From Acheta domesticus (Eukaryota; Arthropoda; Insecta; Orthoptera; Gryllidae), in the NCBI GenBank assembly GCA_031308135.1, contig JAHLJT010009436.1:120374608-120438607 (forward strand): DNA of 64,000 nucleotides, in the 5' to 3' direction. Under the pieces are notes generated by a model that saw only the letters and a list, made by a program, of their open reading frames with translations, did no database searches and had not been told where the DNA came from. Shown here piece after piece: positions 11,305 through 46,764 of the stretch (positions within the stretch are counted from its first letter, which is position 1; the number at the start of each line of letters is the position of its first letter). A program made the position numbers and the translations under genes.

Positions 11305-12130
11305 CTCGGTGGCACGGAGGCGAAGGGGCGTAAAGCGCGGAGGCGCGTCTGGGACGAGCAGCGGAATTAATCGGCAAACTTAGGAATCCGCGCTTCACAA
11401 TGCAGACGGTCCCCCTCTTCGCCGGCGCCTCCGCCCCCGCCTCGCGCTTCGAACTTGATAATTGATTCCTGTTCACAAGTCCGACATCCTTCACCGCCGC
11501 GGCGACCCGGATCCCGTGTATCCGGCGTAACGCTGTCAGAACTTTCCGGACTCCACGATTACGCTAGGTGAGAGAACCGGACCCGCCTCGCTTTTCTGCC
11601 TCATCACTTCTTCCATTTCGCGCCTCGCGCCACCGTTCCCCGCCGCTGTCGCGTCGCCGGGCGAACCACCGCCGCGCCGCTGCCGCACCGACCTCGGCGC
11701 TGGCGGCGGCGGCGGCCAGGGCGCTGGGATGGAAAATATGGAAAATAAAAATTTGAATGAGAAAACACACTGTCACCTTCCCCGGCTACCGCGCACTCGA
11801 CTTTATGGGGGAGAAAAATTTCCATCGAGGGCTGGAAGGGCGCTCGCTCTTTTACTACGATGGCGTGGCTGGCGCGACGCGTTTGGGGAAAGGACGCGAC
11901 CGGCGGCGGGGGAAACGGCAAGGGCGGAGGCGGCGGCGCGGGGCGAGGACGTCGGGAGCGTGGGCGGAGGCCGCGAGCGAGTGGAACGGACCGGAGTGAA
12001 GGGAAAGGGGAGGGGGAGGCGACGCTGGCGGGAGTGGTCGTCGTGCGTGAAGCTGTAAACTCGCAGAGGACGTACAATCTCTTTCCCGAGAGGCGGAGGC
12101 GGCCGCTGGCAAGGTCCAGGCTCTGAATGT
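11290..12130. other. CpG-rich island (copy A)
   Basis: Two GC-dense parts (11290-11740 and 11860-12120) with overlapping Arg/Gly/Pro-rich frames on both strands. The copy-B version (26501-27340) carries several 1-bp indels that shift these frames. That argues against a real protein, though sequencing error in homopolymers is an alternative cause. Confidence 0.6.
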
Positions 12131-12459
12131 CTCATTCCGTCCTTTAACGCGGATTGGGAGAGCAGCGTTAATCAGTAATACACATGCGCGCACGGTACAA
12201 AGTGAAAAGGAGTTCCAAAAGCAGATTTTAGCTGCGTAGCAGTATGACATACATGGCGAGATACCGAGCAATGTTGTTTTAATTCAAAGTAAGTCCGATT
12301 ACAGTTGCTGAACATAAATTCGCGTATTTGTATATATTAAAGCCCTACACAAACGCGGATTATTTTAGCACAATAAGCTCATTTAACTTGAGTTCGTAAG
12401 TACAAAGGATACTTTACATTTCCTAACGTACTGATAATATAAACTTTCATTATTGCAAA

Positions 12460-13203
12460 AAATCAACAACAAACAAGGTGCTAAAACCGCACGTACTTTT
12501 TCGCCAGTATTTTCATGCAAAATTATGCAAAAGTACTCAAATTTTCAAAAAATTGTACATGACCTTATTTCAAAATCTATTTTTGGGGGACATATTTTAT
12601 TAAGAGCAAACATCTTTATTTTTAATATTTTAGTTGTGGGAAGACTCCGAAAATATTTTGAAGTTTTGCAGTTTTCAAAAAATCAGGGTTTTTAATGAAT
12701 GTATGCCCTCCGCCTTTCTCAATATCCAACAACCTCAAGGACCTCACGTCCTTCACACTATCCAATAACAAAATTTAATCAAAAACGATGGAGCCATTTT
12801 TTTAATTCTTAAAATGTCCCAAGGGTTCATGTAAAGTACCCCCATAATTAAAATATCGGTTTCAAATTCAAGGGGCCGCGACATCAGCCAGAGCGATTGG
12901 GGAACATCAATTTCGGAGAAAATAGGCTAAACGGTTTAGCCGCTAGCGTTGTTCACAGATGGAACGACAGACGGACGGACAGAGAGACGTTTTGCCATCA
13001 TCCGAGTTTTCGCTATCAAGGACCCACGAAATATGGATTATGGCTACACCACTTGTTAGAGGATTTTATTTATAAGTTTGTCAACTGAATGTATCCACTT
13101 TTCGTTACCAGGGCCTCATAATAGGAGATTTTATGCCGAAAATTCACCGTTTTTTCGCGCAGCATTACATAACTTTCTCTCAACTCCGTAGCAAGAAAGT
13201 AAA
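12460..13203 (-). repeat. Unclassified dispersed repeat, copy 2 (reverse)
   Basis: Reverse-complement relative of 10322-10860, recognisable from the agaaagttatgtaatgctgc block at its right end through the conserved atccatatttcgtgggtcc area to the aagtacgtgcggttttagc segment at its left end. It is longer than copy 1 because of an internal stretch around 12600-12780 that copy 1 lacks or has diverged in. The two copies face each other across the CpG island. Confidence 0.7.
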
Positions 13204-13896
13204 AAGTGAGTTCGTAGTCGGAAACTTCTCAATAGCCCATTACAAGACACTCGATTTAAAAGTGCGAAGTGTTATCAAACAAGAAAATCAACAACGAGAA
13301 AGAAAATAAATAAGACATACATTGAAAGTACAATGAAAGTTCAAAAGCTTACTTGATATACGTCCATACACAGAAATCTCAATAGCAATTTGAATTCTTT
13401 ACAAACACAAATACACATTTTGAATGGATGCAATACTAAAGGAAACAAGTCCCAATCGCAATTACTTTCTTGTATTATTTTTGACATTTTTGTAATATTG
13501 TATCTATTAAAACTTCAGCCATCTCTTGAAAACCTCTTCACTGACAAAGCGCCGAATGTTAAAACAATACACCTTTTTAATTTTGTAAAATCCAAAAATA
13601 TTAAGGAAAATTACACATGGGTCGTAGAATTGTGTGTATTCTGCGCTACCTTTACAAAACACATTTTAAAAAATTGGAGCTATTTTTGGGAAAATATGTG
13701 TTAGGTATTTTGAAAATCGTTTCATTTTGATTCAAAATTAAGGAAACATTACTAATATTTTGAAAACAACGTATGTAAAATGATTTAAATACCTAATAAG
13801 GAAGGATACATTGCATTAAAAAAGAAACCTCTAGAGTCAATAATAAAAGTGTAGGAGTCCCTTTGAATGTGACATATGTAAATTCACAATAGTATT
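13204..13896. other. AT-rich stretch, nothing recognised (copy A)
   Basis: A short frame at 13390-13704 survives in copy B with small changes. It has no recognisable domain and is probably chance. Confidence 0.4.
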
Positions 13897-14124
13897 CATA
13901 AGTGTGACAAAGACATTTATAATGAAGTTTTAATGAAAATTGGGATTTTGTTATATTTATAAGAGAACCGTTCACGCAAAAATTTAAAGGAAAGTATAGG
14001 AGTGTTTTTTCATAAGTGTGACAAAGACATTTATAATGAAGTTTTAATGAAAATTGGGATTTTGTTATATTTATAAGAGAACCGTTCACGCAAAAATTTA
14101 AAGGAAAGTATAGGAGTGTTTTTT
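13897..14124 (+). repeat. 114-bp tandem duplication, present only in copy A
   Basis: The unit beginning cataagtgtgacaaag occurs at 13897-14010 and again, essentially identical, at 14011-14124. Copy B has it once (about 29097-29212). This is a recent private duplication or an assembly slip in one haplotype. Confidence 0.88.
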
Positions 14125-17035
14125 CTACAAAACAAAACAGGAAATGACGATCGGGCTTCATATGAAATATCAGTAAAAATGAAAAGAAATGTTTCAAATT
14201 CGCAGAGCCTCAACTTCGACATCCTCGATCAAAGAATATCCACTTGGAGGAAAATCCGGCGTACAGTTTAGACGCTCGAGTTGTCAGAAAGAGGGATAAG
14301 TAAACAGAGTGATAGCCACAAAACAACAGAGACAAAAAACGAAGAAACAGAGAGCCAGATTGACTGACAGTCACAGAGGAGTCTTTGAAAAACACCTTTT
14401 CGTTAACAGGGACCACCGAAAAAGTATGTGCGCAAAAACCTCGGCATCGATTTTTTGCAGTATTACACAACGCTATACCACGAACACGAGAAAGTGAAAA
14501 GAAATGTTGTGGAAGTTTCCATTCACAATTCCGATTGTATAACGAATCATTGAGTGTTATGGACGAATAGGTAGAGCCCCCCTGCTCCAATTGCAATCCG
14601 CGATCGCAAACGAGCGCGTGAACGGCTCCTGGCAGCCGCGGGGGGGGGGGCGGGGGGCGGGGGAGGGGCAGCGCACAGCCTTACGACCCTCGCGGGAGCG
14701 GAGTGGCGGCAGCGGCGCGGTGCGCGCTCCAACGAATCGCGCTGAGTTGGGCGGCGGTAATTTATAACAAAAGACTTTAATTAGTCCGTCGCAACCGCGC
14801 CACCAATTATAATGCCCCGCCTAGCGCACGGAGCTTGCCTGGGGAACGGATGGAGGCTGGCAGAAATGGCGGAAAAACGAGGCGGTCCCAGGAAACGGGG
14901 AGGGGAAAGTGACGTGACGCCGGACGGCGGCAATGACAAGAGCTGCTTTAAACAGCAAGGGCGATTTTTGTGGAAAGCAAATAGTGATAATAATAGAGGG
15001 GGACATAGATGCTAAAACTACCAGGCTGGCAATATCAAGAGGCATGGGTAATGAGGGAACTCTGAGCAGCTGACGATATCATAGACATTTGGACGGGGGT
15101 TTGAACTCGATGAGTGACCAGTGATGTGCTAGAAACGTTTGTTTTCACGCAAGGTCTGTAATCGAATAGGACGAGCAGCGGGAAGGGGAAGGAGGAGGCG
15201 GTGGGGGAAATGCGCCGCTGAGCTCCGAACAGATGAACGGATGAGCGATCAGCCCTCATTGAGGTGCCATGATAAAGGGCTGGGTCTAGACCGCTGGCCT
15301 GCTTATTACTCCCAATTACAATTTCCAAAATCGGTGAACGCAGCATTTGAATATGCGCGGCAAAGTGCGAACCATTCGGGATGAGGAAGCTCGGAAGGGG
15401 AAGTGTGCAAATTACAATAACTTGGTAACAGACACGAGACCTTATCTTTATTTCCTTTAATTTGCCATTGAAGACCTGGAAACCGCAATTGCTAATCACC
15501 GAATGGAATTGCACACAGAACTTAAAATTGAAAGGAAGGAGAAAATCAACATCTCGCATTTATAACACACTAAAAAATGTAAGTATGCATCTGTATTGAA
15601 GGTTTGTATAATCATTTAAAAATGTAGCTAACAATTTATTAAACATTAAGCATTCATAAGCTTATTTTTGTAATGTGTAGTGATATTTAAAACGTTACTA
15701 TAGAAAAGTAAAGATACTTGAAATTAAACTAGGTTTACATGAGAATATAATTGGATTTAGTATCGATGGATGTAGGCAGAGAAGAAGTAGGAAAAGCAGC
15801 AGAGGCAAAAAAAGAATGAGAGAGAGAGAACGATAACGAGTGAAATAGCGAAAGCGAGATTATAAGAAAGAAGAGGAGATATAATGAAAGAGAAAGAATC
15901 CAAGAACCCTCAGCTAATGAATCCGTGCACTATTTATTATTTTCTTAAAACAATGTTACAAAGTGGGTGTACGTAGAAGAGCAGAACTTCCAAACTAATA
16001 GTAATACATTTACGGGGAGTAGTGTCGAGAAGGAAGCTTATGAATTGTATAAAACCTTAATCAACCCTTCGTGTACTATTCTGGGCGATTTAAAATTGTC
16101 TTCGAACCTGCGAGATGGGGCTTCTGTTTTCCAAAATGATTCAATTTCTGAAATAATAAATATGGAAATTCTTGTCGTTTTGAAATAATAAAAGAGACGG
16201 GATATTGTCGAAGCCAAGAGTCAGAGGCATCATATGAAGCATCGTCTTACATTAGCATGCACTGGCCACTCTCACCTACCGAAATGCCATTTCAATAATG
16301 TACGCACAACAAGCAAGTGTAATTATTCATACGTCAAGCGCGCGATAACGTAGACTGAATCATGAAACCGAGTGACGCGCAGTCAATAATTAGCGCTTTC
16401 ACAATTTCCTTAGGGTCACAGCTTCCGCACGGGGAATGTTTTCCCTTCCCAACACCAAGTTGGCGGTCTAGTCATGTGTATCGAAAGTTTCGCCACTAGG
16501 CGGTTCCTCATGTTTCTCTGTTGGCGGCAATATGCTAACAATTTCGCAAGAACACGGTATCGCTCACGATTTGTATCGAGGCGCCTCTGACTTTCAGGAG
16601 CAAAGCATGTCACCTTTATACGGACAGAATGAGTCAAACACTCGAATTTCATGTTATGAAAGGAAATTGGTTTTTTTGCGTACTCATACGAAGGGTGAAA
16701 GTTTGGCTCGTACTCATGTGTAAGAAATAACTGCTCTCAATCAAGTTTCAGAACGTTCCAAGTTGGGTGAAAGAAATCATTCTTTTCAAAGCCTTTGCTT
16801 ATTAAATTTATTTATATCCAAGGAATATTTTTGTTAATTCTACATTCATACAATTATTACTGTTTAATATCAATGAACAATACGTATTTATACTGTATAA
16901 CGCTTATGCCCCGTTTCATGAAACAGCGCTCACACAAATAAACTCAGATCATTGTTAAAGTATAAATACAATGTTGAGTCAGCCAAAGGATGTGCTGAAC
17001 CTTTTACTGGCTAAAAAGATTTCCTGATAGAAGAG
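14125..17035. other. Mixed AT-rich DNA with small GC patches (copy A)
   Basis: Holds a GC patch at 14590-14750 with a G-run near 14640, GC-moderate DNA at 14810-15240, and a purine-rich low-complexity stretch at about 15770-15900 (gaga-rich). No gene, RNA gene or element recognised. All of it recurs in copy B (about 29213-32130). Confidence 0.45.
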
Positions 17036-18400
17036 TCGTAATGTCGGCGAGGCCACTTGGGTCGAGAAAGGGCGAGTCGGCACTCGGCGGGCAACGAGTG
17101 CCTTGCCAGCAGCGGCGCGGCGCTGGGTGTATGACGAGCGTGCTTGCGAAAAGGAAAATGATGCAAATCAGCGCATTTCGCATCCACCTTTCTTCGCCGG
17201 CCGGTCACGAAGGGAGCAAATTCTCAGCATATGGGGCGATTTTTGCTCGGCCCACTCAACATCAAAATACGTCCACTTTTGTGCAAAATATGCCATAGAC
17301 GCCATATCAATGCCCAATTTGGCCAAAAATGTCATATAATCCAAACTTATAATTCATAAAAGTTACACATTTATGTATTATGTTTAGTATAAGAGACGAA
17401 TTTCGAAACCATAGAACTGACGGATGTATCGTTTTATTTGTTTGATTTTTGTTTGAATACATCTTTGGCTTTATGTATTGTCACTTTTCACTCAAAGACA
17501 TTGCTTGAAACCCATTGAACACATCATATTCAAAATATTTGGGGTCATGTTTCCTAAGACGATGATAAAATAGACCGAAGAAAACTTCCCATTCGAAAAA
17601 TATTTATTGTGAACTATTTAGAAGTAACTTAAATCAAATCAAAAGAACATTTGAAGACGCTGGAGCATTGATATGGCTATTCAAAAATTATGACACGATC
17701 TAAATATGCACCTTGACAGAACATACGAAAGATCTTTCTTTACTTCGACAATCGCACATACACAACACAACTTAAAAAGGAAGATCTTATATATACACAG
17801 TACTTAATTTATAAAATTTTAGGTTCCAGAACGCGCCACAAAAATGTGGTTAATTTAATATAAATAGTTGAATATTTATATTATACTTTAATAATTATTC
17901 ATGAGCTACCGGAACGCCGTTCCGTCGCGACCCGCCAAAAAAACAAGCCATGTATATATAAGAACAATAGGAATGGAATATTGTAATAAGTGGTATTAGA
18001 AAAGTCATTAAAACTACAAATTTATAGAACATAGAAAATACGGACGTAAAACTATTAACAGTAAAGTATTACAAAAAATCAATGCATCGAAAATTTGCTT
18101 AAATTTACAAGCAAAGAGGATCTAAAAGTAACTTATGTAACGGAATGGCAACATTGAAAAGCATACAAATTCGACAAAAATCGAGAAAAGATGGAAATTA
18201 TATAAAAATAATCCTACATTAAAGAACATTCAGAAGAGAAAGTGATAATCGAAAAGGGTCAAAGGAGAAGTTCGAAAAAGAATAAGAAGCAATTTGAAGA
18301 AAGAAAACAAATCAATCAACAGAAATGAATATAACGTAAAGTGGAGCAACAGAGGTAGCTTTTGCAAAGCTATAGTGGAAAAATAACGCAGATGCCTGGC
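17036..18400. other. Small CpG patch then AT-rich DNA (copy A)
   Basis: GC patch at 17040-17220. A near-palindromic segment (ggaacgccgttccg, around 17910-17924) lies in otherwise AT-rich sequence. No coding evidence. Confidence 0.4.
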
Positions 18401-18697
18401 ACAACGGCCGTCCCCAAATCCCGCCCTCCGACAAGTCTATTCGAGGGCAGGAAGGTGGTCAGGACGAGCGTCGCGGGGCGAGCGAGCCGTGTGCCCAGAC
18501 AGCGGGTAAATGTTTAGAAATAATAAAAAGCGCGGCTCGGCGAGGCGTGCGCCGCGGCTGACGAGCGGAGATGTAATTAATTCCGGCCGCGGAGACCGGC
18601 GAAAGCTCGGGTTATGAATCGGATTACACAAGGAAAACAAGAATACCGCGGCCCTTGCCCTCATTCCCCAGCCTGGCCGCCGCCAACGGCGCCGCCA

Positions 18698-18755
<58 letters not shown>

Positions 18756-19000
18756 TTGCCGCTGCTGCAGCCACCGCCGGCGACGGCGGCCGTCGCCGCA
18801 TGCCGCCACCGTATCTCTTTTAAATTGAGAGCCTTAATCCGGAGACTCATTTCCAGGCCCCACCACCCCTGTCAACCTCTCTCGGGCCTCGTGCAGGAGC
18901 TTCAGTGCCCCAACCTCTCGATTTCTCCTCCCTCCGCCATTATCCCCTTAGCGTCCTCCCTCGCCTCACCCTCCCGATTCCACTTTTCCGGAATCTTCCC
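18401..19000. other. CpG-rich island with (CCG)n tract (copy A)
   Basis: GC-rich from about 18410 to 18790, then C/T-rich to about 19000. The core is a (CCG)n microsatellite at about 18700-18755 which gives poly-Pro, poly-Ala or poly-Arg depending on frame. No reading frame is convincing. Confidence 0.6.
18700..18755. repeat. (CCG)n microsatellite, long allele
   Basis: About 18 uninterrupted units, then cttgccgctgctgc. Copy B has only about 12-13 units and ends in several gct units (33795-33840), so this locus differs in length between the two copies. Confidence 0.9.
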
Positions 19001-19079
19001 TACTGTTTCTCTACTCTCACACAAACTTTAACTTTTCTGAAAGTCTAATAATGACACCACCTCGACTGTTTGTGTGTCT

Positions 19080-19083
19080 GTAG
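19080..19083 (+). other. Empty target site of the LTR retrotransposon
   Basis: In copy A the sequence tgtgtgtctgtagagtttga is uninterrupted. In copy B it is split after gtag by the 34157-40312 element and gtag is repeated on the far side, so this is the pre-insertion allele. Confidence 0.95.
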
Positions 19084-20780
19084 AGTTTGATTCTGGGTCT
19101 TCTTTTCTACCACAGTCTAGTTTTCTCGCAAACCACACTTATTGTGTGTGTATTTTCGTCGATATTAACACGTCTTCTAAACGTCTCTCCACTACTTTGT
19201 CAGTTCTGTAAATATAACTATTTCGCTAAATATCATTGATAAGAGTATCTCAATGATATTTTTTCAGCACAGAATCGCGCAATCCAGGTTGTTTTCCAAC
19301 TTTCTGGGCCACTTTGTCTGCTTGGGAAAGGATGACTGCCTGAAAAATTACTGGTACTCAAATTGCTGTAATGTGATTCTCATTTCCATGATTACGTTAC
19401 TTTGTATACAGATGAATAAACTACTCCTATAAAGAACCATTTGTACCAACGCACTTTAAAAAAGATGAAAAAGATATAAAGGATGTGAGCAATGATCATG
19501 AATGCACTCACTTGAAACGCAAAGAAATGAACAAATGCAACAAATTGCAATCGTTTTCGAACCACGTCAAATAATTATAATAATTTTATGGATTTTTTAT
19601 ACTTGACCGTTTCACGTTTTGTAGTTCATAATGCAGGAGCTCTTCTTTTCATATGAATTATATGTTCAGATTTACTTCGATGAGCAAATAATATTGTATT
19701 TTGCTAAATTATTTTGTGTATTCACAATACAAAGTCGCCTACATTAGATTTGTCTTGTTAAGTTTTTAATATGATAAAAAAGTTATTTAAAAAATAAGAG
19801 CTTTTCATGTGGCTTGAAATATATTACTATGCGTATATACCAAGAACGAAAAATAAGTGTATTTGCGAAAAAAAGACCATTTTTATTCGAGGCGGAGCAG
19901 AGCCGCGGGTGGTAAAAATGTATGTCTGAATTTCTTTTCACCGGAAGTAAACACAAATATTTGTGTAAGCTCACTTCCAAACAATGGATTACAAGTTTCA
20001 AACATTAATGGTTTCAGAAATTATCTTGAGAAAATAATTATCATAACTGATAATTGGGTTGCCGATTATTGTAACTCCGGTAGTGTTTGTAACGATGAAG
20101 CAGTTGAATTCTAGCAAACCTTGCTTTAATACAAAACGTTCTACTCCCAAAGAAGCTTATTCATTTAACATCGAAGAGCATGGAAAACAACCATGTTTAA
20201 CAATGCAAAGAAATACGTGTTTAACCTGAATATTTCAAAATAAAGTTCATTGAAATAAATTTACCTTCGAACTCGAAATTAGAGGTTGAAATGGATTAAA
20301 AAGCAGTATTTTCCCCTGCTGGCATATGACTTTTTAAAAGTTGGTGCTAGCGTGTTTACCAGCCGAAAAAAATCGATTTTACGAACAATAAACAACTCGT
20401 AAAATGGTTCGTTAAGAGGAGAGTGTACAAAAAAATCTTGTAATGGTGGCACATAATACATTTCAATCATGTTTTCTGGAATGGGCTAAAGTCTATGAAA
20501 TTTAAAACAAACATTGAAATCAACCAAACTATATGGAAGTTATAATTAAAGACTGTGTGTTTAAACTGTATACACATTGTTTGTGAAAGCTTTTCACATT
20601 TATTAGGTTTTTCGGTAGTTACATGCTAAAATAATGTTTTCCCTATCTACTGTACACAAAAACTTTGATTATTCGCTAGTAAAATATAACTTTTTGCGCA
20701 ATACTTATTCCTGATGTGAAAATAACGCATTGGCGCTTAACGAATCCCATTTAATGCTTCCATTTAATTACCGAGCGTCT
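19084..20780. other. AT-rich stretch, nothing recognised (copy A)
   Basis: No recognisable domain, RNA gene or element. Copy B (40317-42035) matches with small indels, including an extra stretch of about 20 bp near 41876-41898. Confidence 0.4.
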
Positions 20781-21080
20781 CGCTAAGCGTTTCTCCTAGA
20801 CTCCAACTTCATTATCCGGCGCGCCGATTGTCTGTACAGAGGCAGCGGCAGCGGCCGTCGGAAAGCAGTCTCGTCCTGCGCCATTACCGCTAATAGACCA
20901 GAACAGCGGGGGTGGGCGACCGGGACCGCAGGCCCTCGGCCGCGGCAGGCGGCGCGGGGGCGGCGGTTGAGGCCGCCCGCGGGCAAGACGTAGGCGCCGG
21001 ACACGGGCAAAGCGGACGGCATGGGTGCTGACAGCCAGGCCCAGATGCAGACGCCGCAGGCGAAACGGCAGGGAAGTCGT
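20781..21080. other. CpG-rich island (copy A)
   Basis: GC-rich block with no credible frame; repeated at about 42034-42320. Confidence 0.5.
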
Positions 21081-21515
21081 GAGAACGGAATCCGGAGAAA
21101 AGGAGTGGTAGTTTATTATACCAATGATGAGATGTGAGAGAAAAGATTTGTTAGGTTAGTGAAGAGAAAGAGAAGGGGGTGATCACAACACAGGGAAGCA
21201 CAATGAGCAAGTCGAAAGCAATGAAAGAAACAGAGCACACTTTGGAAGAAAAGAAGACAAGTAATCAAGTGAGAATATAATCTCATAATGATAGTACAAA
21301 TAAATGTGGGTCATACTCGCGTGGAAGAGCGTAAGGAGACATACGGACGTTTAGAAAACAAAAATGTTGAAATTCGAACGAAATCCAACTCATACACAGT
21401 CGAACCTTGCAGCTTGAAACGAGAGGAAGTTATATGAACGCTAGGCTTGTATTAAAAGTACCACTACAAAGATTTTCGATTACGAGGGGTAACATTCGAA
21501 AAACATGAAAGTAGG
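21081..21515. other. Purine-rich then AT-rich stretch (copy A)
   Basis: Plus strand is A/G-rich (many gaaag and gagaa runs) at 21080-21290. Nothing recognised. Confidence 0.4.
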
Positions 21516-21885
21516 CAAATGGAGCCACTGCGCCATGTAGATCGGCGGCGGCCGCGGCCGGGAGCGACAGCGCAAGCGGGCGTCGCTGTCGGTGGGTGGG
21601 TGGTCGGCGGGTGGTCGGCGGGTGCGCCTGCGGGCGCTGTGGGTGGCGCGGTGGGCAGCGGCCGCCGCTGGACCGCCCGCGCGTCGCGCGGCGTCAGCAC
21701 CTCGCGTCAGCGCGCCGATCAATACGCGGCGGGCACCGCCTGAACGCGCAAGGCTCCAGCGGCGCCGCGCCGCGCCGCGCCGCGCCACGCCGCGCCGTTC
21801 CCGCGGCGGTGCAGGCGGCGACGGGGCTGCCTTCGCCTCGGCGGCCGCACCCACCGAGTCGGGCCCACGCTAAGGTTCGGTGGCA
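21516..21885. other. CpG-rich island (copy A)
   Basis: Contains imperfect ggtgggtgggtggtcggcggg repeats near 21590-21625 and ccgcgccgcgcc runs near 21765-21800. Frames on both strands are low complexity. Confidence 0.55.
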
Positions 21886-22159
21886 GTTTACAGAAGTTAA
21901 ACAACGGACTGCGCGAGAGAACGGAGACGTACAACGCGTAGGTATGGATAAGGTAAGGTGTTTGAAGTTCCCTGCATCAAGAGGCGACCGGGGAGAACTG
22001 CATATGTCAAATGAGACACAAGGTGAAGTTGACCAGTCAAATCTACGACGAATGCTACTATGTCACCCTGGAGGTCGCTCTTTGTAGGAAGGATAGAAAC
22101 GGAAACGAAATCCACAAGGCGCGGTAGTATCGTTACAATTCAATTTTCAATGCGGTGTC

Positions 22160-22222
22160 GGCGATTTGAAATAGGTGAGCACACGGTGATGGCGATTTAA
22201 AATAGGTGGGCAAACGGGGTTG
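22160..22222 (+). repeat. Imperfect tandem pair, about 31 bp per unit
   Basis: ggcgatttgaaataggtgag is followed about 31 bp later by ggcgatttaaaataggtggg, each then running into acacgg- or aaacgg-type sequence. It lies just upstream of the hairpin cluster and is preserved in copy B. Confidence 0.75.
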
Positions 22223-22298
22223 ATGATAAAGAAAGACCTAATACGAAATGGTTGAGAGGTGACAGAGCATTGACCAAAATAGAAATTTGACATCTTCA

Positions 22299-22455
22299 CC
22301 CCACTTCCATCCACTAGAACGAACATCTACGAATACCCGTTACATTCTTCTGTACAGAGGGCCTTGGAAGTGGGGATAAACCGGAAAAAATGGCTGAAAG
22401 AGGAGTCCTAACCTCCTCTAACCCTAAGCAGGATAATCCTGCAGCACTTAAGTGC
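22299..22455. other. Cluster of four consecutive perfect stem-loops
   Basis: Stems: CCCCACTTCC 22299-22308 with GGAAGTGGGG 22366-22375; AGAGGAG 22399-22405 with CTCCTCT 22413-22419; GCAGGAT 22428-22434 with ATCCTGC 22436-22442; and the 12-bp palindrome GCACTTAAGTGC 22444-22455. Their close packing suggests a structured RNA, a transposon end or a protein-binding region; no family was recognised. All are intact in copy B starting at 43553. Confidence 0.7.
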
Positions 22456-34100: not shown

Positions 34101-34152
34101 TTAACTTTTCTGAAAGTCTAATAATGACACCACCTCGACTGTTTGTGTGTCT

Positions 34153-35702: not shown

Positions 35703-35725
35703 TGGCTTTCCCAAGTGGGGCTCGA
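35703..35725 (+). other. Primer-binding-like site, tRNA-Lys-like
   Basis: Two bases after the LTR comes TGGC, then a tttcccaa segment and GTGGGGCTCGA. The second half equals the complement of an insect tRNA-Lys T-arm and the first four bases match its CCA end. The middle does not align without an indel, so pairing would be imperfect. Tentative. Confidence 0.5.
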
Positions 35726-35976
35726 TAGTACCACAGATACCCCAGTAAAACGCCCTAGAATCAATTCATGTCTCAGTGCCAGTTTGATAATAGTCGCAGA
35801 ACCTAATTTTTTATTACTGTTGTTTTTTTAAATGGATGGAAGGACGCTGCTACGAAAAGAACAATTTGTGGTCTGGTAATGATATTATTTATTATTGTAT
35901 TTTGTGTATAAGTGTTATTGTTTTGTGCTTTGTGTGTTGTGAATACCGTGTGCGCGTTTCACGCAAAACAGCCAAA
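35726..35976 (+). other. Leader between primer site and gag remnant
   Basis: AT-rich. A frame starting at 35836 contains a hydrophobic stretch, but it runs into the likely gag start at 35977 and is probably untranslated leader. Confidence 0.5.
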
Positions 35977-37025
35977 ATGCTGGACGAATCAGGCGTCGAT
36001 GTGGCGGGAGAGAGCAGTTCGGGGAACAGCCTGCGCCCGAGATCACCCTAAGTGAACTTATGCGAGTTCTCACGAAGCAAATCTCGGAAAGCAGTAAAAG
36101 ACATGAGGAAAGATTTGACCGGCTAGACAGTTGTTTGGTTGACCAGGCCGCGAAACTAGAAAATTTGGAGGCGAAATTTGATCACAAAATAGGAACTTTG
36201 CAGAATCAGTTAGAGGGTAGATGTGGGAAAATTGAAACTAGCGTGGAGAACTTAGGCCAGGAGTTAGAAAGTTCTAGGGCCGAGGCAAGGGGAAATATTA
36301 TCAAAATCGAATCAGAAATTAGTCAGAAACTTCAGGCATGTGACAGGAAAGTGGAAGCTTATTGCGAATCAATTACTGAGAATATTGCCGAGGTTAAAAC
36401 AGAAATGAACGGCAAATTCACGAAAATTGAAACCAAACTCAGCACGGAAGTGAGTGAAATCCATGGCAAATTCGAGAAATTAGGAGTTATTGAAGGGGAG
36501 AATATCAGGGACAGGGAAGAAAAGTTAAAGAAAGAAATAGACAAGAACTTAATAAAATTAGTAAGGGAGGAAATCGAGAAAGAGAAAGAGAACGGTCCTA
36601 TTGCGAATTCATCGGGAGGATCAGGGCTTAGATTCTCGTGGGCCCCTCCACAAAATTTATGTTTTTGGGGAAAAGCAGATGAAAATCCAAAGGTTTTTCT
36701 CGACCGTGCCGAGAATTACATGGATTTGACGAAGGCAGTACCGTCCAAATTAAAACCTAAATTCATGCAGGAACTTCTACGCGGAAATGCAGCCCTCTGG
36801 CTCACTGCGCTTGCACCATTCCCACAAACGTACGAAGAGTTTCGTACCAAGTTCCTTGCGCGTTACTGGAACGAACAAACGCGTTACGAATTCGAGAGAA
36901 AGATTCTAGAGACCAGGTGGGACAAAAGACGCGACCAATCTTACCTTGACTACGCCATGGAGAAAATCTCCGCTATTAAATTGTGTGACCCCATGATAGA
37001 GGATAAAAAGGTCATTGGCTTTTGA
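35977..37025 (+). pseudogene. Broken gag of the LTR element
   Basis: An ATG at 35977 opens a frame that stops at 36051. A different frame then runs 36060-37025 (321 codons), so a frame break lies near 36015-36050. The long part begins with about 140 residues of predicted coiled coil (heptad-like E/K/L-rich segments). A capsid-like retrotransposon gag domain follows in the last 130 residues, recognisable from LCFWGKADENP and WLTALAPFPQTYEEFRTKF. Gag forms the particle that packages element RNA. It ends early at a TGA (37023-37025); downstream DNA to about 37366 is degraded and no intact zinc knuckle was found. With these breaks a full-length Gag is unlikely. Confidence 0.78.
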
Positions 37026-37366
37026 CCGCGCATTACCCTACCTATGTGCAAAATTTAAATTAATAGTGTAGGATGTGAGGACTTCGATCGATTCCAGGAG
37101 CTGCTCGCTCAATTTGATAGGACTCGGGTAATTTTCTTATGAGGATAATTGGGAGCGAAACCAAGGGAACGGCCAGAACCGACCGTCATGGCGTCGCGAT
37201 GACCGGAATCGGGGAACGCTGCAAATGAGCGACGCCCACCACCGGATTCTAATGAGAATCGAGGCGGGAACGCTGGGGACAGAAACGGTCAGCATGATTC
37301 CACTAGGCAGAGCCCGTTAAATTAGAACCGTTCGAGCCAGTAAGGTACCGGGGTCCCGAACGAGTT

Positions 37367-38491
37367 GTGTCAGAGGTACCAATTTCCAAGGTAGTGTCAG
37401 TGAACTACGCATTTCATGACTTAAATGACGATGCGAATGAACATGTGAAGGAACTCGCACGGAAGTGCCCAGTAATCGAGTTTCTCACAGGAAATTTTAA
37501 TGTACGCGCTCTAGTAGATACCGGCAGTGAGGTTAGCGCAATTTCAAAGAAATTTTACTCGCAACTAATAAGTGAACGCATTCCAGTGCCAACTTTGCCT
37601 ACGGGTAAATGCTTCGTTGTAGGAATCGGGAAGAAGAAAAGTAAGCCGATTTTCATGCAGGCCTTAATCTCACTAAATTTTCGGGAAGTTTCATTCGACG
37701 TGCCATGTTTAGTCATAGAAGACTTGAATTATGATGTTATTCTAGGGGTAGATTTCTTGCGGGAAAATAACGGGATAGTGGATTTTTCCAGGAATATTGT
37801 GAGTTTCGGTGAGGGTAGGGAAATTGAGATACAAGATGACGAGGACAGACCGGACATTAGCATTTCATGTGGGTTTGGGGATTCGGGGGATGACGTGAGT
37901 GGAGTCATTAACAAGTGCTTGCTAGGAAATGATTCACTAAATGACCACGAGCGCCATCAGCTGCAGCAATTGCTCTGCAAATACGGCAACGTTTTCGATC
38001 GTCCCGTGCATCCAATAAAAGACTTTTGCTTTCGGATCCAGGTCACCGATGACTCACCCTTTAAAGTGAAAAATTACCCTATTCCGCAGTCCATTAGGGG
38101 GGAAGTCGATGAAACGATCAAAAACATGATTAGTGAAGGCATTATTGAGAGGTCAGTCACGGCCTACTTAAACCCGATTGTTGTTGTCAAGAAGAAAGAC
38201 GGGAAAGTTAGAATTTGTTTAGATGCACGACGAATCAACGAAGTTACAGTCCCAGAAAACGAGGCACCTCAAAACATAGACGAAATTCTTTGGAAATTCA
38301 ACGAAACTAAAAAATTTTCGGCCTTAGATTTTTCGAGTTCTTATTGGCAGATTTCCATCCACCCCGACGATAGGAAGTTCACGGGATTCTTATACAACGG
38401 CTTAACCTACGTCTGGAAACGTATGCCTCCTGCGGGACGAAAACGGCCTTCCAGCCGGAAAATTCAATTTTTTCAACCTCCGTCCGTTTAA
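37367..38491 (+). pseudogene. Truncated pol: protease and N-terminal half of reverse transcriptase
   Basis: A 374-codon frame. Residues 51-59 hold the aspartic protease motif DTGSEVSAI and 125-130 the ILGVDF motif, as in Ty3/gypsy proteases. From about 235 the RT fingers and palm begin, with KKKDGKVRICLDARRIN near 275-291 and motif A FSALDFSSSYWQI at 317-329 (catalytic Asp 321). Beyond WKRMP (about 350) the frame shifts and stops. The YxDD-box motif, thumb, RNase H and nearly all integrase are missing. Normally pol makes the enzymes for reverse transcription and integration; this copy cannot. The open frame's Met is not necessarily the natural start, since pol is usually made by frameshift from gag. 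Confidence 0.85.
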
Positions 38492-38494
38492 AGA

Positions 38495-38553
38495 GTAGAA
38501 GTCACTGACAACCTCTGCACACGATTCGGAGTACCTTGGGCTCGCGGTACAGT
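38495..38553 (+). pseudogene. Integrase remnant after the pol deletion
   Basis: A short stretch reads LCTRFGVPWARGT, resembling the TRFGVP segment in the retroviral-type integrase core. It sits directly after the broken RT, implying that a deletion joined mid-RT to mid-integrase. Only about 20 codons support this. Confidence 0.5.
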
Positions 38554-38752
38554 TCATGTTCTTCTTTGTTAAATTTTGTAGGGTTAATTAGAATTAAGAT
38601 CTAGTAGTAGTTGCAATTTTCTTAGTTACTGTAGAATGATTTTAATGTTAGGCATCGCCATGTTATTTTTTTTGAAATTTCATCACGACGAGAAAAAAAA
38701 TTCTCATTTCCAAATCTCAATTTTTCAAAGCCCCAATTTTTTTTCTCTATTC
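38554..38752 (+). other. 3' untranslated part of the LTR element
   Basis: AT-rich with several T-runs; no env-like frame. Confidence 0.5.
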
Positions 38753-38763
38753 GGAGGGGAGGG
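38753..38763 (+). other. Polypurine tract
   Basis: ggaggggaggg just before ccaa and the right LTR; the usual primer for plus-strand DNA synthesis. Confidence 0.8.
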
Positions 38764-38767
38764 CCAA

Positions 38768-40312
38768 TGTAGCGGTACGCTATTTTTAATATTTTTTAAA
38801 TTTCACAAATAACTGTCGATGCGAGGCGTCACTCCCGCCGCCGCCAGCCGGGTCGGCGCGCCCCCTCCGCTAATGGAAGGGATGACAGCACGCGCTCCTC
38901 TAAAGTTTATGGCCATCGTCCGCGAGTCGACCCTCATCCCGTCACGCACCCGGGCGCCGAAGAAGAGATTAGAGACGTGTGCTGATCCCGCCGTTCCGGG
39001 TATCATGCGCACTAAGTACCCAGGCCGTCCTTCGCAGTTTTCTCCAGGGGTCCCAACGGACATTCCGCGTACCCTTTACTGACCTACTTCCGAAGTCAGA
39101 CGGAGAGCGTTTTCCAGACAGAGATAGGGCTACGGAAAATTCCTAGAATCACCGGACCTGATTGGCCGAGGACAAAATTACGGCGTAGTAGCACTTAGCC
39201 AATCAGGGGCAAAATTCCGTGGGGTGGGAGCGATTTTGGGGCACTTTTGAATTTTCGGGGTGGCGGAACGAGGAGACCTCCACGCTAGCGGCGTAGGGGA
39301 GAGGATCACTTCTTCTTGTTCGATTGAGCTGGGGGGGGGCGAGCGCCGCGGAGCGAGTAACAGCTCCGGCGCCGCGTTCGAGGGCTACGTGTACTCGACT
39401 TGTTTTGGGTGGCGAGCGCCGCGGAGTAAGCGATAGCTCCGGCGCCGCGTTCGAGGGAGAATTATTATTTTGGGATTTAGTTCGTGGACACTGAGCTCTG
39501 CCGTGGGCAGTGACCGGTGACTAGTTTTCTCCGAGATTCGTGATCGTGATAACTCCAGAGAACTTTCCGTGAGAACTACTAATTTGTGTGAACGGAATTC
39601 GCGATCATTCACGATCCGGGCCAGCTGACCGTCGCCGCCGCCGCCGTCACCGCCGCAGCCGCTGTCGCCGCCGCCGCTCCTTTGGTAGCTACTGTGGAAG
39701 GACGTTTCTCGGCCTAGCAGGGCCATCTCAGCCGCCGACCCAGACGGAGAGAAGCCGCGACCCCCGCCGCCGACGCCGAGGGCCGCCTACACGCCGCCCC
39801 ATTCAGGCATAAACTTCGGTCAACGACCGCCAAAGAACTATTGTGCATTGCTGTGCCGCGCTTAGGCACTTGTTTCCTCATTATTGTCAGCCAGAAGGCG
39901 AATGGCCTAGAGTTTGTTGGGGCCTGTAAAGGAATTTAATTGTAATTCTCGTTCTTTCTCTTTTTTTTTTTTAGATTTAAGTTTTATCTCATTTTTTTTT
40001 CGTTTCTAACTGAGCTCATCAGGTAGGGCCTTTCTTAACTCTTTGAATCACTGTAACTTCCCCGGCCTATTATTAGGCGGGAATAAACCTTTTTATTTGC
40101 TTTACCAACCACTGAATTGTTTCTGTAGTTAGCAAACGCCTTACGACTCCTTCCATCCGAGTTAGATTCTAAGCAGGTGACAAAGTTGGCCGACTGAGCT
40201 AGGCCCGGGCCGCCCTCGTTGACTTCGGCGCACACCCACGCCGCCGGAGCTCGACGCTGTGGTTGACAATCGACGCCACCGTGTGGCTCGATAACGAACC
40301 TTGGGTGTGACA
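38768..40312 (+). repeat. Right LTR
   Basis: 1545 bp. Matches the left LTR throughout by eye, except a G-run (9 against 8) and two T-runs (12 against 11, and 9 against 10), all typical sequencing-error positions. Confidence 0.95.
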
Positions 40313-40316
40313 GTAG
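40313..40316 (+). other. Right target-site duplication (gtag)
   Basis: Second copy of the target; followed by agtttgattctgggtc exactly as at the empty site. Confidence 0.95.
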
Positions 40317-42033
40317 AGTTTGATTCTGGGTCTTCTTTTCTACCACAGTCTAGTTTTCTCGCAAACCACACTTATTGTGTGTGTATTTTCGTCGATATTA
40401 ACACGTCTTCTAAACGTCTCTCCACTACTTTGTCAGTTCTGTAAATATAACTATTTCGCTAAATATCATTGATAAGAGTATCTCAATGATATTTTTTCAG
40501 CACAGAATCGCGCAATCCAGGTTTGTTTTCCAACTTTCTGGGCCACTTTGTCTCTTGGGAAAGGATGACTGCCTGAAAAATTACTGGTACTCAAATTGCT
40601 GTAATGTGATTCTCATTTCCATGATTACGTTACTTTTGTATACAGATGAATAAACTACTCCTATAAAGAACCATTTGTACCAACGCACTTTAAAAAAGAT
40701 GAAAAAGATATAAAGGATGTGAGCAATGATCATGAATGCACTCACTTGAAACGCAAAGAAATGAACAAATGCAACAAATTGCAATCGTTTCGAACCACGT
40801 CAAATAATTATAATAATTTTATGGATTTTTTATACTTGACCGTTCACGTTTTGTAGTTCATAATGCAGGAGCTCTTCTTTTTCATATGAATTATATGTTC
40901 AGATTTACTTCGATGAGCAAATAATATTGTATTTTGCTAAATTATTTTGTGTATTCACAATACAAATTCGCCTACATTAGATTTGTCTTGTTAAGTTTTT
41001 AATATGATAAAAAAGTTATTTAAAAAATAAGAGCTTTTCATGTGGCTTGAAAATATATTACTATGCGTATATACCAAGAACGAAAAATAAGTGTATTTGC
41101 GAAAAAAAGACCATTTTATTCGAGGCGGAGCAGAGCCGCGGGTGGTAAAAATGTATGTCTGAATTTCTTTTCACCGGAAGTAAACACAAATATTTGTGTA
41201 AGCTCACTTCCAAACAATGGATTACAAGTTTCAAACATTAATGGTTTCAGAAATTATCTTGAGAAAATAATTATCATAACTGATAATTGGGTTGCCGATT
41301 ATTGTAACTCCGGTAGTGTTGTAACGATGAAGCAGTTGAATTCTAGCAAACCTTGCTTTAATACAAAACGTTCTACTCCCAAAGAAGCTTATTCATTTAA
41401 CATCGAAGAGCATGGAAAACAACCATGTTTAACAATGCAAAGAAATACGTGTTTAACCTGAATATTTCAAAATAAAGTTCATTGAAATAAATTTACCTTC
41501 GAACTCGAAATTAGAGGTTGAAATGGATTAAAAAGCAGTATTTTCCCCTGCTGGCATATGACTTTTTAAAAGTTGGTGCTAGCGTGTTTACCAGCCGAAA
41601 AAAATCGATTTTACGAACAATAAACAACTCGTAAAATGGTTCGTTAAGAGGAGAGTGTACAAAAAAATCTTGTAATGGTGGCACATAATACATTTCAATC
41701 ATGTTTTCTGGAATGGGCTAAAGTCTATGAAATTTAAAACAAACATTGAAATCAACCAAACTAATATGGAAGTTATAATTAAAGACTGTGTGTTTAAACT
41801 GTATACACATTGTTTGTGAAAGCTTTTCACATTTATTAGGTTTTTCGGTAGTTACATGCTAAAATAATGTTTTCCCCTGCCCAATGTTTCCCCCGTTTTC
41901 TACTGTACACAAAAACTTTGATTATTCGCTAGTAAAATATAACTTTTTGTGCAATACTTATTCCTGATGTGAAAATAACCCATTGGCGCTTAACGAATCC
42001 CATTTAATGCTTCCATTTAATTACCGAGCGTCT
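40317..42033. other. AT-rich stretch, copy-B counterpart of 19084-20780
   Basis: No gene recognised. Around 41876-41898 it carries about 20 extra bases (cctgcccaatgtttcccccg-like) absent from copy A. Confidence 0.4.
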
Positions 42034-43140
42034 CGCTAAGCGTTTCTCCTAGACTCCAACTTCATTATCCGGCGCGCCGATTGTCTGTACAGAGGCAGCG
42101 GCAGCGGCCGTCGGAAAGCAGTCTCGTCCTGCGCCATTACCGCTAATAGACCAGAACAGCGGGGGTGGGCGACCGGGACCGCAGGCCCTCGGCCGCGGCA
42201 GGCGGCGCGGGGGCGGCGGTTGAGGCCGCCCGCGGGCAAGACGTAGGCGCCGGACACGGGCAAAGCGGACGGCATGGGTGCTGCAGCCAGGCCCAGATGC
42301 AGACGCCGCAGGCGAAACGGCAGGGAAGTCGTGAGAACGGAATCCGGAGAAAAGGAGTGGTAGTTATTATACCAATGATGAGATGTGAGAGAAAAGATTT
42401 GTTAGGTTAGTGAAGAGAAAGAGAAGGGGGTGATCACAACACAGGGAAGCACAATGAGCAAGTCGAAAGCAATGAAAGAAACAGAGCACACTTTGGAAGA
42501 AAAGAAGACAAGTAATCAAGTGAGAATACAATCTCATAATGATAGTACAAATAAATGTGGGTCATACTCGCGTGGAAGAGCGTAAAGGAGACATACGGAC
42601 GTTTAGAAAACAAAAATGTTGAAATTCGAACGAAATCCAACTCATACACAGTCGAACCTTGCAGCTTGAAACGAGAGGAAGTTATATGAACGCTAGGCTT
42701 GTATTAAAAGTACCACTACAAAAGATTTTCGATTACGAGGGGTAACATTCGAAAAACATGAAAGTAGGCAAATGGAGCCACTGCGCCATGTAGATCGGCG
42801 GCGGCCGCGTCCGGGAGCGACAGCGCAAGCGGGCGTCGCTGTCGGTGGGTGGGTGGTCGGCGGGTGGTCGGCGGGTGCGCCTGCGGGCGCTGTGGGTGGC
42901 GCGGGTGGGCAGCGGCCGCCGCTGGACCGCCCGCGCGTCGCGCGGCGTCAGCACCTCGCGTCAGCGCGCCGATCAATACGCGGCGGGCACCGCCTGACGC
43001 GCAAGGCTCCAGCGGCGCCGCGCCGCGCCGCGCCGCGCCACGCCGCGCCGTTCCCGCGGCGGTGCAGGCGGCGACGGGGCTGCCTTCGCCTCGGCGGCCG
43101 CACCCACCGAGTCGGCCCACGCTAAGGTTCGGTGGCAGTT
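42034..43140. other. Two CpG-rich islands (copy B)
   Basis: Islands at about 42040-42320 and 42770-43130, with purine-rich DNA between. Counterparts of 20781-21080 and 21516-21885; frames are altered by indels between copies. Confidence 0.5.
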
Positions 43141-43552
43141 TACAGAAGTTAAACAACTGACTGCGCGAGAGAACGGAGACGTACAACGCGTAGGTATGGA
43201 TAAGGTAAGGTGTTTGAAGTTCCCTGCATCAAGAGGCGACCGGGGAGAACTGCATATGTCAAATGAGACACAAGGTGAAGTTGACCAGTCAAATCTACGA
43301 CGAATGCTACTATGTCACCCTGGAGGTCGCTCTTTGTAGGGAAGGATAGAAACGGAAACGAAATCCACAAGGCGCAGTAGTATTCGTTACAATTCAATTT
43401 TCAATGCGGTGTCGGCGATTTGAAATAGGTGAGCACACGGTGATGGCGATTTAAAATAGGTGGGCAAACGGGGTTGATGATAAAGAAAGACCTAATACGA
43501 AATGGTTGAGAGGTGACAGAGCATTGACCAAAATAGAAATTTGACATCTTCA

Positions 43553-43709
43553 CCCCACTTCCATCCACTAGAACGAACATCTACGAATACCCGTTACATT
43601 CTTCTGTACAGAGGGCCTTGGAAGTGGGGATAAACCGGAAAAAATGGCTGAAAGAGGAGTCCTAACCTCCTCTAACCCTAAGCAGGATAATCCTGCAGCA
43701 CTTAAGTGC
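43553..43709. other. Hairpin cluster (copy B)
   Basis: Same four stem-loops as 22299-22455; the first stem is 43553-43562 with 43620-43629. The preceding imperfect tandem pair is also kept. Confidence 0.7.
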
Positions 43710-44995
43710 AAAGGGTGAATTAATTAATTAGAATTAAATTAGAACTTTGGTGATTATTATTAATCAAACTGTTTTTGTTGAACTATTTACGGGTTTTCCA
43801 AGCCTCAGAGCTTCTTTAAGAAATGTGTAATAAATCCTCTAATTTCCTGAAAATTAAAAAAAATTAATAAAAACTTGTGAAAATTATTGTAATTAATTAT
43901 TATGTTGATTATAATTTTTAAAATGTTATTATTGTGCATAAAATAATAGTGTTCGCTAATGATCTCAGCTGTTTCTAAAGCAATATAAATGAAATGAAAT
44001 TTTAAAAATCCTGATTGTCAGTATAAAAAAGGGAGGGAATTGAAAATATTTACAGAAATAAAATGTTTAACAACATACAGCTTTGAGGCTTTTCAAAATG
44101 TTCAGAAGGGCAACAGCCCCCTGTCGACTTTTGTGCGCGACTAAGATTTCATATATTATTCTCATAAACATGTTCGGATACATAAAATATTCGTATTAAC
44201 GATTTTCATGTACATGAACTGTATTCTGAATTATTTCGGGAATGAAAAGCATCTCTAAGGCAGCTCCCACCCTCAAGATTATATTATAGTCTTTCAGCTA
44301 CATTTTTTAACTTGAAGGAATCATTTTCAGTGTTGAGAATAAAGTACACGCGATAGCTAACACGTAAAACATTTTAAACACGGACATTTACAGCTAAAGC
44401 GGAGATTGTTTTAGGAGAGTTAAGAGTCGACTCCTCTACGAATTATTTATTTCTGTCTCGTTATTTAATAAAAAACAGCATGAAAACATGTGTTACTGTG
44501 TAAGAAAATAAAGGAGATAAATGTAGTTTATCGTGCGACGACCTGAGAACATTTCGATTAAAAGGCGAGCTGTACTACAAATAATATTGCAATAACCACT
44601 GTAACTCTATTGTAGTATGAGAAAAATATAATTTTCAATTCACTAACACTCATTTTCAGTAAACTTTCATAGAAAAGTTCAATACATTTGGAAGATTTAG
44701 ATTCACATCATTTCAAACTATATTTACTATATTTTTAATCAGATTTCTTTCCATAACCCAACGACATTTTCAGGATTTTTGGAGGCATGCCTCCAAAATA
44801 ATTCTCTACAATTTACTTCTCGTCGCAACGGTTCTCTGTGAAGGAGTACCACTAGCACAATAGCCCTTCCGTGACTTGGAACGATTTCTATCAACCAAGT
44901 TTAAGCAAAAATTTACATTCCTCTTAGGGGTTTCATCCTCGACCGCTGAAGCAGCGTTTATATGACAATGCAACACCACAAAAATAACCGTCCCT
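43710..44995. other. AT-rich stretch, nothing recognised (copy B)
   Basis: Counterpart of 22456-23735 with small indels. Confidence 0.4.
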
Positions 44996-45375
44996 AGCAT
45001 CGAAACGAACGCTCCGCTGGCAGCGGGGGCGGGGGGTGGGGGTGGAGGTGGGGGAGGCGCGCTAAGGAGGCGGCGGGCTGCCTGCGCACGCGCGCGTCGC
45101 GTGACGGACGCCGGCGCCGGCGCCGCGGGGCAGTGACGGAGCGCGGGGCGGCGCCGACGCGTCTTGCGGCCCCGGCCGCATCCGTCAACGCAGCGAGATA
45201 TGCGGCCTCGCGCGCGCAGCCTCCGCCGCCGCCGCCACCACCGTCTCCGGGCCACGATAAGGCAGCGACGGCGGACGGCCGTGATCACACAAACGGCGAC
45301 GCGGGAAGAATGGCGTCTTCCGCCGGGACGCGAGCGCGCAGCTCGCTCGCTGCGACGCCCACGAGAAATTTTTCA
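44996..45375. other. CpG-rich island (copy B)
   Basis: Counterpart of 23736-24110. Confidence 0.5.
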
Positions 45376-46764
45376 ACGATAAGATGCGTTATGTTTACAG
45401 TTTTACGCGCGTCCAAACGTTCTTGGAAACGAGAAGTGTACCGTACGTGAGCTTGCTTTACAAAGCCTCAAATTTCTCCAAGATTGACAGTTTTCAATAC
45501 AGAAAGAAGGAAATCGACAGTATCGTACCCCAATATTACGAATCTAATGGAAGGGAAAGTTAAATAATTTTCTCCTTAATACAGCGTGTACACACTCCTT
45601 AGCAGCAAAGACAATTGCTGTAAACCTTGTAAAAATATTGTTACGTGTCATTTGGAGATTGGCATTAAGAGAACTAACAATTACCATAATAAACAGTTTC
45701 TCAGCATTAGCAATCAAAGCGATGAAATAAAAATATTTGAAAAATCGAAAATAAAATATGATTTGACGCAGGATTAACTAAGGTTACGTATTTATTAAAA
45801 TAATGAGTAAATTTACTTAATGAAACATTACAAGAAGTATGTGTGAAATCGCATGTAATTAATTCCCTGGATTGATTTCCGTTAAAAATCTCCTTCAGCC
45901 AAAAACTATTCATTACTACAACAATAGCGTTTTGGATGTACTATACGCATTTTCATATGTTCGACAACACTTACGCATTTTTCGCTACAATTCATATTAT
46001 CAAATGTTGCGAGTTTTTCATCCCTTTGTTTACTTAAAACCAAAATTGGATTGGAGGGGCGAATATCAACGAATGGGAAATTTAGTGAAAATCCGTCCAC
46101 CGAGTGTTTTTCTACCGGTGTAATCCAGATCCCGGAAACACGCAAAATATCACGCAAATCACATTAAAAATATATCCAAAATAAATTAAAGAAACAAATC
46201 TAAACGATTTTGCCGTCACATTACGCATAGTGAAGGTACGCACGCTACTAAAGGTACAAATACCAGCATTTTGAAACGCAAGACAAATATTAATAGCATT
46301 ATTCATTTTAATGCTGTAATAATTAGTTAAAATATGAGTAGTTCACAAAGTGACATCACCCTGGGGTGCTAGAAAGTTTCCATAACCAAATTAACCACTC
46401 GGAAAAGTCCCACAATATTTATTCCAATCGCACACAATGAAATTATCTATTTATTACACTGCTATCAAGCTATAAACGTTAAGCCCCGAAACATTTTTGC
46501 AATAATTCGAAAGACAAGAAATTACTAACTGTGAAAATGAGTCCGAATATCACCCAAATCTTGATGTATCTATTTTTTTTCTCCTTAAGAAATCCTATTT
46601 ATATCTGAAATATCGGTTCGTTTAAACAATGAGGGAATTTTCTCAAAAAATAATTCGGAAAATAAAGTAAATAAACGCTCGTTTTTATGAATGACGCTAC
46701 GCGAGACTATCGTCACAAGATATGTCATATAACTAATTGTTATCGTGAGCATAAATTAACGAGT
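45376..46764. other. AT-rich stretch to the end of copy B
   Basis: Counterpart of 24111-25500; continues without a break into unique sequence at 46765. Confidence 0.5.

Follow-up and report, generated by a model that had tools for sequence, protein, structure and literature searches.

Duplicated overlapping contigs (DOCs) have been described as adjacent contigs whose alignment exceeds 300 bp and 95% identity and comes within 300 bp of the end of each contig, with unshared sequence at the opposite ends and mate pairs that are more consistent after merging (Kelley and Salzberg 2010, PMC2864568). Of 13,576 chimpanzee DOCs, 11,113 (82%) were no more than 10 bp away from the ends of their contigs (Kelley and Salzberg 2010, PMC2864568). 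For the heterotype form of false duplication the marks given include a gap within the pair, haploid half depth and haplotype-specific single-copy k-mers (Ko et al. 2022, PMC9516828).

The window analysed here is the whole 64,000-nt stretch, and its sole N run (25501-26500) is exactly 1000 N long. An earlier note on this DNA had reported a stretch present twice around this gap. Self-BLAST confirmed this and returned three collinear direct blocks, about 14.2 kb in all, between a copy on the left of the gap (A) and a copy on its right (B). The window is laid out as follows.

1..11304, no strand, left flank, contig 1 only
11305..25500, + strand, copy A, at the right end of contig 1, allele lacking the LTR element
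13895..14125, + strand, tandem duplication in A with an offset of 114 bp, single in B (29095-29212)
25501..26500, no strand, 1000-N gap between contigs 1 and 2
26501..46765, + strand, copy B, at the left end of contig 2, allele carrying the LTR element
46766..64000, no strand, right flank, contig 2 only
11305-14011 against 26501-29212, direct, self-BLAST block 1, 98.06% identity
14009-19083 against 29095-34156, direct, self-BLAST block 2, 98.72% identity
19072-25500 against 40305-46765, direct, self-BLAST block 3, 98.18% identity

These edges agree with those given before except for the right edge of B, which lies at 46765, one base beyond the earlier 46764. The self-alignment that the earlier note had proposed for quantifying identity gave 98.06-98.72% in the three blocks. 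The two copies form an exact dovetail: the right contig is homologous from its very first base and the left contig up to its very last, leaving an overhang of 0 bp on either side of the gap. As in DOCs, only the facing ends of two adjacent contigs align, they do so over the required length at more than 95% identity, and the opposite ends are unshared (Kelley and Salzberg 2010, PMC2864568). Unlike DOCs as described there, the overlap carries indel errors resembling those of long reads and has a transposable element inserted within it. The block also resembles a heterotype false duplication in the features taken here from that description, with a gap (1000 N) between near-identical copies on one scaffold and haplotype-specific sequence differences between A and B (Ko et al. 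2022, PMC9516828). The block thus very probably belongs to a class already described, the heterotype false duplication formed by overlapping contigs (Kelley and Salzberg 2010; Ko 2022).

From its sequence the block is very probably a single locus represented by two unmerged haplotype contigs and so falsely duplicated. The false duplication proposed in the earlier note is supported by the dovetail geometry, by the copy numbers of tiles in the assembly, by an error gradient towards both contig ends and by an insertion site that is empty in one copy and filled in the other. We infer that A and B are alleles and that the 1000 N are a scaffolder's spacer. Repeat-graph assemblers can terminate contigs at repeat boundaries, and a true tandem duplication of exactly this block, with both contigs broken at its boundaries, could give a similar picture. 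We regard this as exceedingly improbable, as both contig ends would have to match the boundary to the base.

Copy number was assessed by searching the 2.33 Gb assembly with tiles. All five block tiles tested, which cover 10.3 of the 14.2 kb of copy A (11305-11999, 14001-14999, 17001-19083 and 25401-25500 fall outside them), matched at full length exactly twice, once in A and once in B, and no third full-length copy of these tiles was found. The tile at 23400-25400 matched A, B and two short sequences only. Both flank tiles tested, 9300-11304 (the last 2 kb of the left flank) and 46765-48765 on the right, had one full-length match each, themselves, which agrees with the earlier observation of unique sequence on the sides away from the gap. 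The copies are separated in the assembly by the N run alone, and the gap could hide a junction between the end of a first copy and the start of a second. A true recent tandem duplication could have had a unit larger than the overlap, with the right part of copy 1 and the left part of copy 2 each lost by collapse onto the other copy and the LTR element entering copy 2 only later. This would give the order left flank, first copy, gap, second copy, right flank, and would explain the dovetail without coincidence, but it requires two separate collapses and we consider it improbable. As its collapsed flanks would be expected to give the same local block-to-flank coverage ratio as the artefact, a coverage test has to be judged against genome-wide diploid depth.

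The small differences between A and B fell into 21 complex clusters and, as isolated changes, 110 indels and 32 SNPs. Nearly all isolated indels (105 of 110) were 1 bp long and 86 of these 105 lay within a homopolymer run of at least 2. The earlier description of the differences as mostly homopolymer indels therefore held for the small ones, and it left out the two largest, the 6,156-bp LTR element in B and an extra tandem unit of about 114 bp confined to A. One-base indels per tenth of the block followed a U shape (19, 11, 7, 6, 3, 12, 5, 8, 16, 18), and the distance of the 105 indels from the block centre was reached by 0 of 20000 uniform simulations. The 32 isolated SNPs were spread evenly along the block (p 0.42). 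Runs of at least 4 were somewhat commoner at the left end of the block and runs of at least 2 were even. Dispersed repeat copies allowed the odd copy to be identified at some sites. It was B at 8/8 indels 1.2-1.9 kb from the start of contig 2 and A at the 1/1 testable indel about 3 kb from the end of contig 1; attribution at the right end rests on this single site because tile 23400-25400 had no usable dispersed copies. At one of two SNPs in the left region the odd copy was A and not B, as is expected of real polymorphism. Because the indels pile up towards the contig ends and the repeats assign the testable ones to the copy that ends there, the majority of the small differences look like contig-end consensus errors. 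This corrects the earlier reading, as the homopolymer indels mostly reflect poor contig-end consensus and not allelic difference.

Further comparison was made with LTR pairs elsewhere in the assembly, each verified by its flanks. Six such pairs held a total of 1 indel and 5 substitutions, an indel-poor spectrum, as compared to 105 one-base indels and 32 SNPs between A and B, a comparison that may be weakened if young LTR pairs are less diverged than alleles. One further candidate pair, L014/L018 (1 substitution, 0 indels), was dropped from the count as its flanks showed that it was not one element. Even in the middle of the block the indel density (3-12 per ~1.43 kb) greatly exceeded that of the LTR pairs, and proximity to a contig end therefore leaves some of the indels unexplained.

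These patterns also bear on the two tandem duplications. If exactly this block were duplicated, read-supported ends would be expected from both copies, whereas the start of contig 2 is error-rich. For the duplication of a larger unit, the indel gradient fits thinly covered dovetail ends, although by itself it does not exclude that history, and the isolated-SNP divergence of about 0.23% falls within the range of ordinary allelic diversity. A third explanation, homotype false duplication, would have a single haplotype assembled twice through read errors, so that A and B would not truly differ as alleles. The majority of the small differences do resemble consensus errors, but an LTR insertion of 6.2 kb flanked by a target duplication, a tandem unit of about 114 bp and evenly spread SNPs are unlike read errors, and the filled and empty insertion sites already contradict it, leaving it only a negligible chance. 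What speaks for two haplotypes is the LTR insertion, together with the tandem unit by which the copies differ and the even spread of the SNPs.

The inserted element and its site have the following parts.

34153..34156, + strand, left target-site duplication GTAG, 4 bp
34157..40312, + strand, LTR retrotransposon of 6156 bp, internally deleted, copy B only, most likely Ty3/gypsy
34157..35700, + strand, 5' LTR, 1544 bp
36060..37025, + strand, ORF in gag position, 321 aa, without a gag family match
37367..38491, + strand, truncated pol-like ORF of 374 aa with an aspartic protease and the beginning of a reverse transcriptase
38768..40312, + strand, 3' LTR, 1545 bp
40313..40316, + strand, right target-site duplication GTAG
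19080..19083, + strand, empty target site GTAG in copy A

The insertion site was clean: in B the element has GTAG on both sides, and in A GTAG is present once. Paired LTRs, target-site duplication and TG...CA ends (TGTAGCGG...GTGTGACA), as expected of an LTR retrotransposon, were all found. The two LTRs differed by three homopolymer lengths and no substitution. In the pol-like ORF the protease scored above the curated Pfam cut-off (PF13975, 30 against 28.2 bits; PF08284, 26.7 against 20.3) and was followed by a truncated RVT_1 match that was below cut-off (21.8 against 29.6) and to which reverse transcriptase relatives align. The ORF at 36060-37025 matched only Baculo_PEP_C and Apolipoprotein in Pfam, both below cut-off, and no gag family match was found there. 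Protease preceded reverse transcriptase with no integrase between them, the Ty3/gypsy order, which excludes Ty1/copia and alone does not exclude BEL/Pao; judged on domain order, Ty3/gypsy is the most likely class. RNase H and integrase were absent downstream of the reverse transcriptase, where only 276 bp lie between the end of the pol frame (38491) and the start of the 3' LTR (38768). As this leaves no room for either domain, the element is an internally deleted derivative and not a complete Ty3/gypsy member. We lean towards a non-autonomous, internally deleted LTR family that is still mobile in the species and is seen here as a heterozygous insertion in the sample, probably trans-mobilised by relatives with a longer pol.

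A single locus assembled twice could have come from one animal that was heterozygous here or from several pooled individuals. Contig 1 would represent the haplotype without the LTR insertion and stop at 25500. Contig 2 would begin 14.2 kb back, at the homologue of 11305, and follow the haplotype with the 6.2-kb LTR retrotransposon. If the assembler left this dovetail unmerged and scaffolding then ordered and oriented both contigs correctly, putting 1000 N between them, the overlap would be seen twice. The heterozygous insertion may have caused the assembly break, and combined with thin coverage it would account for the failure to merge. Merging would reduce the window to about 42.7 kb (A allele) or about 48.8 kb (B allele). 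If left uncorrected, the artefact adds about 15-21 kb to the assembly at this locus (one copy plus 1000 N), repeats within the block count double and what is probably a single heterozygous locus would be reported as a segmental duplication. The block is a compact teaching case, as neither the U-shaped indel density nor the repeat-based error attribution needed reads, both having been derived from the assembly itself.

With a minimum length of 90 aa, 131 stop-to-stop ORFs were listed in the window, six of them crossing the N gap. No host gene was recognised among the 34 of 131 ORFs scanned against Pfam, a scan that could miss spliced short-exon genes, and the only matches were in the two ORFs of the LTR element, those of the gag-position ORF being below cut-off. 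Rfam (gathering scores) and ARAGORN found nothing in the window. Unlike the part of the account of Ko et al. (2022, PMC9516828) drawn on here, no host gene was recognised in the block itself among the ORFs scanned. In the left flank, the ORF at 687-1598 had named relatives at 37-56% identity, mostly from insects (psyllids, planthopper, beetles, moths, butterflies), the others being a record from a mite and one from a bacterium.

The window was compared with itself. Copy A (11305-25500, 14,196 bp) was collinear with copy B (26501-46765) at 98.1-98.7% identity, and the homology spanned from base 1 of the right contig to the final base of the left contig, on either side of the single gap in the window (1000 N, 25501-26500). 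The block coordinates given in the earlier note agreed with self-comparison and alignment to within at most one base. The window lies at C6162:120374608-120438607 (C6162 being an assembly sequence), and the whole assembly (2.33 Gb, 6511 sequences) was searched with tiles. The block tiles 12000-14000, 15000-17000, 19084-21100, 21100-23400 and 23400-25400 each had two full-length matches, A and B, and the flank tiles 9300-11304 and 46765-48765 had one each; the search passes over words that are very common and scores just the top candidates, so the counts refer to full-length copies. The remaining tile matches were partial; besides the second unit of the tandem repeat within A, they came from repeat copies elsewhere.

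The largest difference between the copies was an additional 6,156 bp in B (34157-40312) with a direct repeat at either edge (1544 and 1545 bp); these repeats are LTRs with the ends TGTAGCGG...GTGTGACA. GTAG was found on either side of the element in B whereas a single GTAG was found at the matching site in A (19080-19083), identifying A as the unoccupied and B as the occupied site. An additional tandem unit of about 114 bp was present in A (13895-14125) and single in B, and a CGC-rich run contained 19 bp found only in A. Further smaller length differences included 20 bp and 6 bp present only in B. The insertion and the tandem unit indicate two different source sequences, and simple re-assembly of one haplotype was thereby ruled out.

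Global alignment with the LTR element left out resolved 163 difference clusters. Of these, 32 were isolated SNPs (19 transitions and 13 transversions), 110 were isolated indels and the other 21 were complex. The isolated SNPs correspond to a divergence of about 0.23%; BLAST counted 54 mismatches in its three pieces, and the global alignment had 95 mismatched columns, which include shifted bases beside indels. One-base indels made up 105 of the isolated indels, 86 of them in runs of at least 2, and two 4-bp indels were found, one being the target-site duplication itself. The one-base indels were distributed over tenths of the block in a U shape (19, 11, 7, 6, 3, 12, 5, 8, 16, 18) that was matched by none of 20000 uniform simulations, and the isolated SNPs (1, 2, 2, 5, 3, 2, 2, 5, 7, 3) were compatible with uniformity (p 0.42). 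Homopolymer runs of at least 2 were evenly spread (264-300 per tenth); runs of at least 4 ranged from 23 to 58 per tenth, with the left end of the block richest.

The copy carrying the errors was assessed using dispersed repeats. The repeat at A 12478-13215, where the differences tested are located 1.2-1.9 kb into contig 2, was compared with six copies elsewhere (L003-L008, about 78-80% identical; found using A as query, with L003 and L004 seemingly almost alike). At all eight A/B indels A matched the family length and B was odd (five losses, three gains); of the two SNPs, one was odd in B and one in A. A dispersed repeat of about 190 bp, SINE-like in size, lies at A 22291-22490, with 93-99% identity among the 40 partial matches listed of 1010 candidates. 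Its single A/B difference (22459, some 3 kb short of contig 1's end) was odd in A as compared to B and all six repeat copies. At testable sites errors thus fall in whichever contig is closer to its own end, the right side being represented by one site. Six LTR pairs of the element's family at other places in the assembly, each free of N within 1.5 kb, served as a control and together had 5 substitutions and 1 indel (a seventh pair was left out), so sequence elsewhere is far cleaner in indels. The 5' and 3' LTRs of the element in B had 3 homopolymer-length differences and no substitution.

These results bear out the earlier note, which from the raw sequence had read the block as an assembly artefact. 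Contig 1 would consist of the left flank and the A allele and contig 2 of the B allele and the right flank, the two having been set side by side and never merged, possibly because the heterozygous 6.2-kb insertion together with thin, error-rich ends blocked the merge. Identical geometry and the same local block-to-flank coverage ratio would be expected of a true tandem duplication whose unit exceeds the block and whose inner flanks have collapsed onto the outer ones. Such a duplication would likewise yield reads running left flank-block-right flank; we consider it very improbable. The unmerged-contig layout is that of the "duplicated overlapping contigs" of Kelley and Salzberg 2010 (PMC2864568), and the block agrees with the gap criterion for heterotype false duplications in Ko et al. 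2022 (PMC9516828). The block is very probably an ordinary, well-known assembly artefact, and its own biological interest is low.

The element in B contains two ORFs:
36060-37025, ORF in the gag position
37367-38491, truncated pol ORF with aspartic protease and the start of reverse transcriptase

Only 276 bp separate the pol ORF from the 3' LTR, too short a stretch to hold RNase H and integrase. The same aberrant residues following the reverse transcriptase break are found at the end of P0001, a database protein with 11 member sequences. Two further copies in the genome (L039, L040) are collinear with the element across the break at 99.3-99.5%, except for a minor rearrangement around element position 1918-1949. 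Dispersed copies thus share the pol deletion. LTR matches in the assembly had 98-100% identity among 40 scored of 951 candidates; this capped set lacks the window's own 3' LTR, so it gives no copy number and is not exactly the 40 best matches. The family (34157-40312; L039, L040) is a young, dispersed, internally deleted LTR retrotransposon with 1.54-kb LTRs and 4-bp, mostly AT-rich target duplications. A related LTR-element family is represented by P0003, which shares 74% identity with the pol ORF. In this assembly it had at least 103 matches scored, at 98-100% identity, of 6517 candidates; most of those listed fall in frames 445 or 476 aa long, and some in open frames 1112 aa long. These lengths may mean that subfamilies shortened by a deletion or a stop coexist with longer ones. 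Mobilisation of the element in trans is plausible.

At another locus, L063 (C392:225509000-225518500), a flank of about 170 bp together with an LTR of the element family occurs twice (1794-3506 and 6247-7960) at a distance of 4.45 kb, the interval holding a 5'-truncated element and no N gap. This looks like a single target site in two states, one carrying element sequence and the other a solo LTR; it may stem from two haplotypes stitched together within the contig or from a real local duplication. In the left flank, an ORF on the minus strand (687-1598, 303 aa) had no match in a Pfam scan; it is related to insect proteins, some named reverse transcriptase, with 96% identity to an unnamed database protein and 49% to a Diaphorina citri protein.
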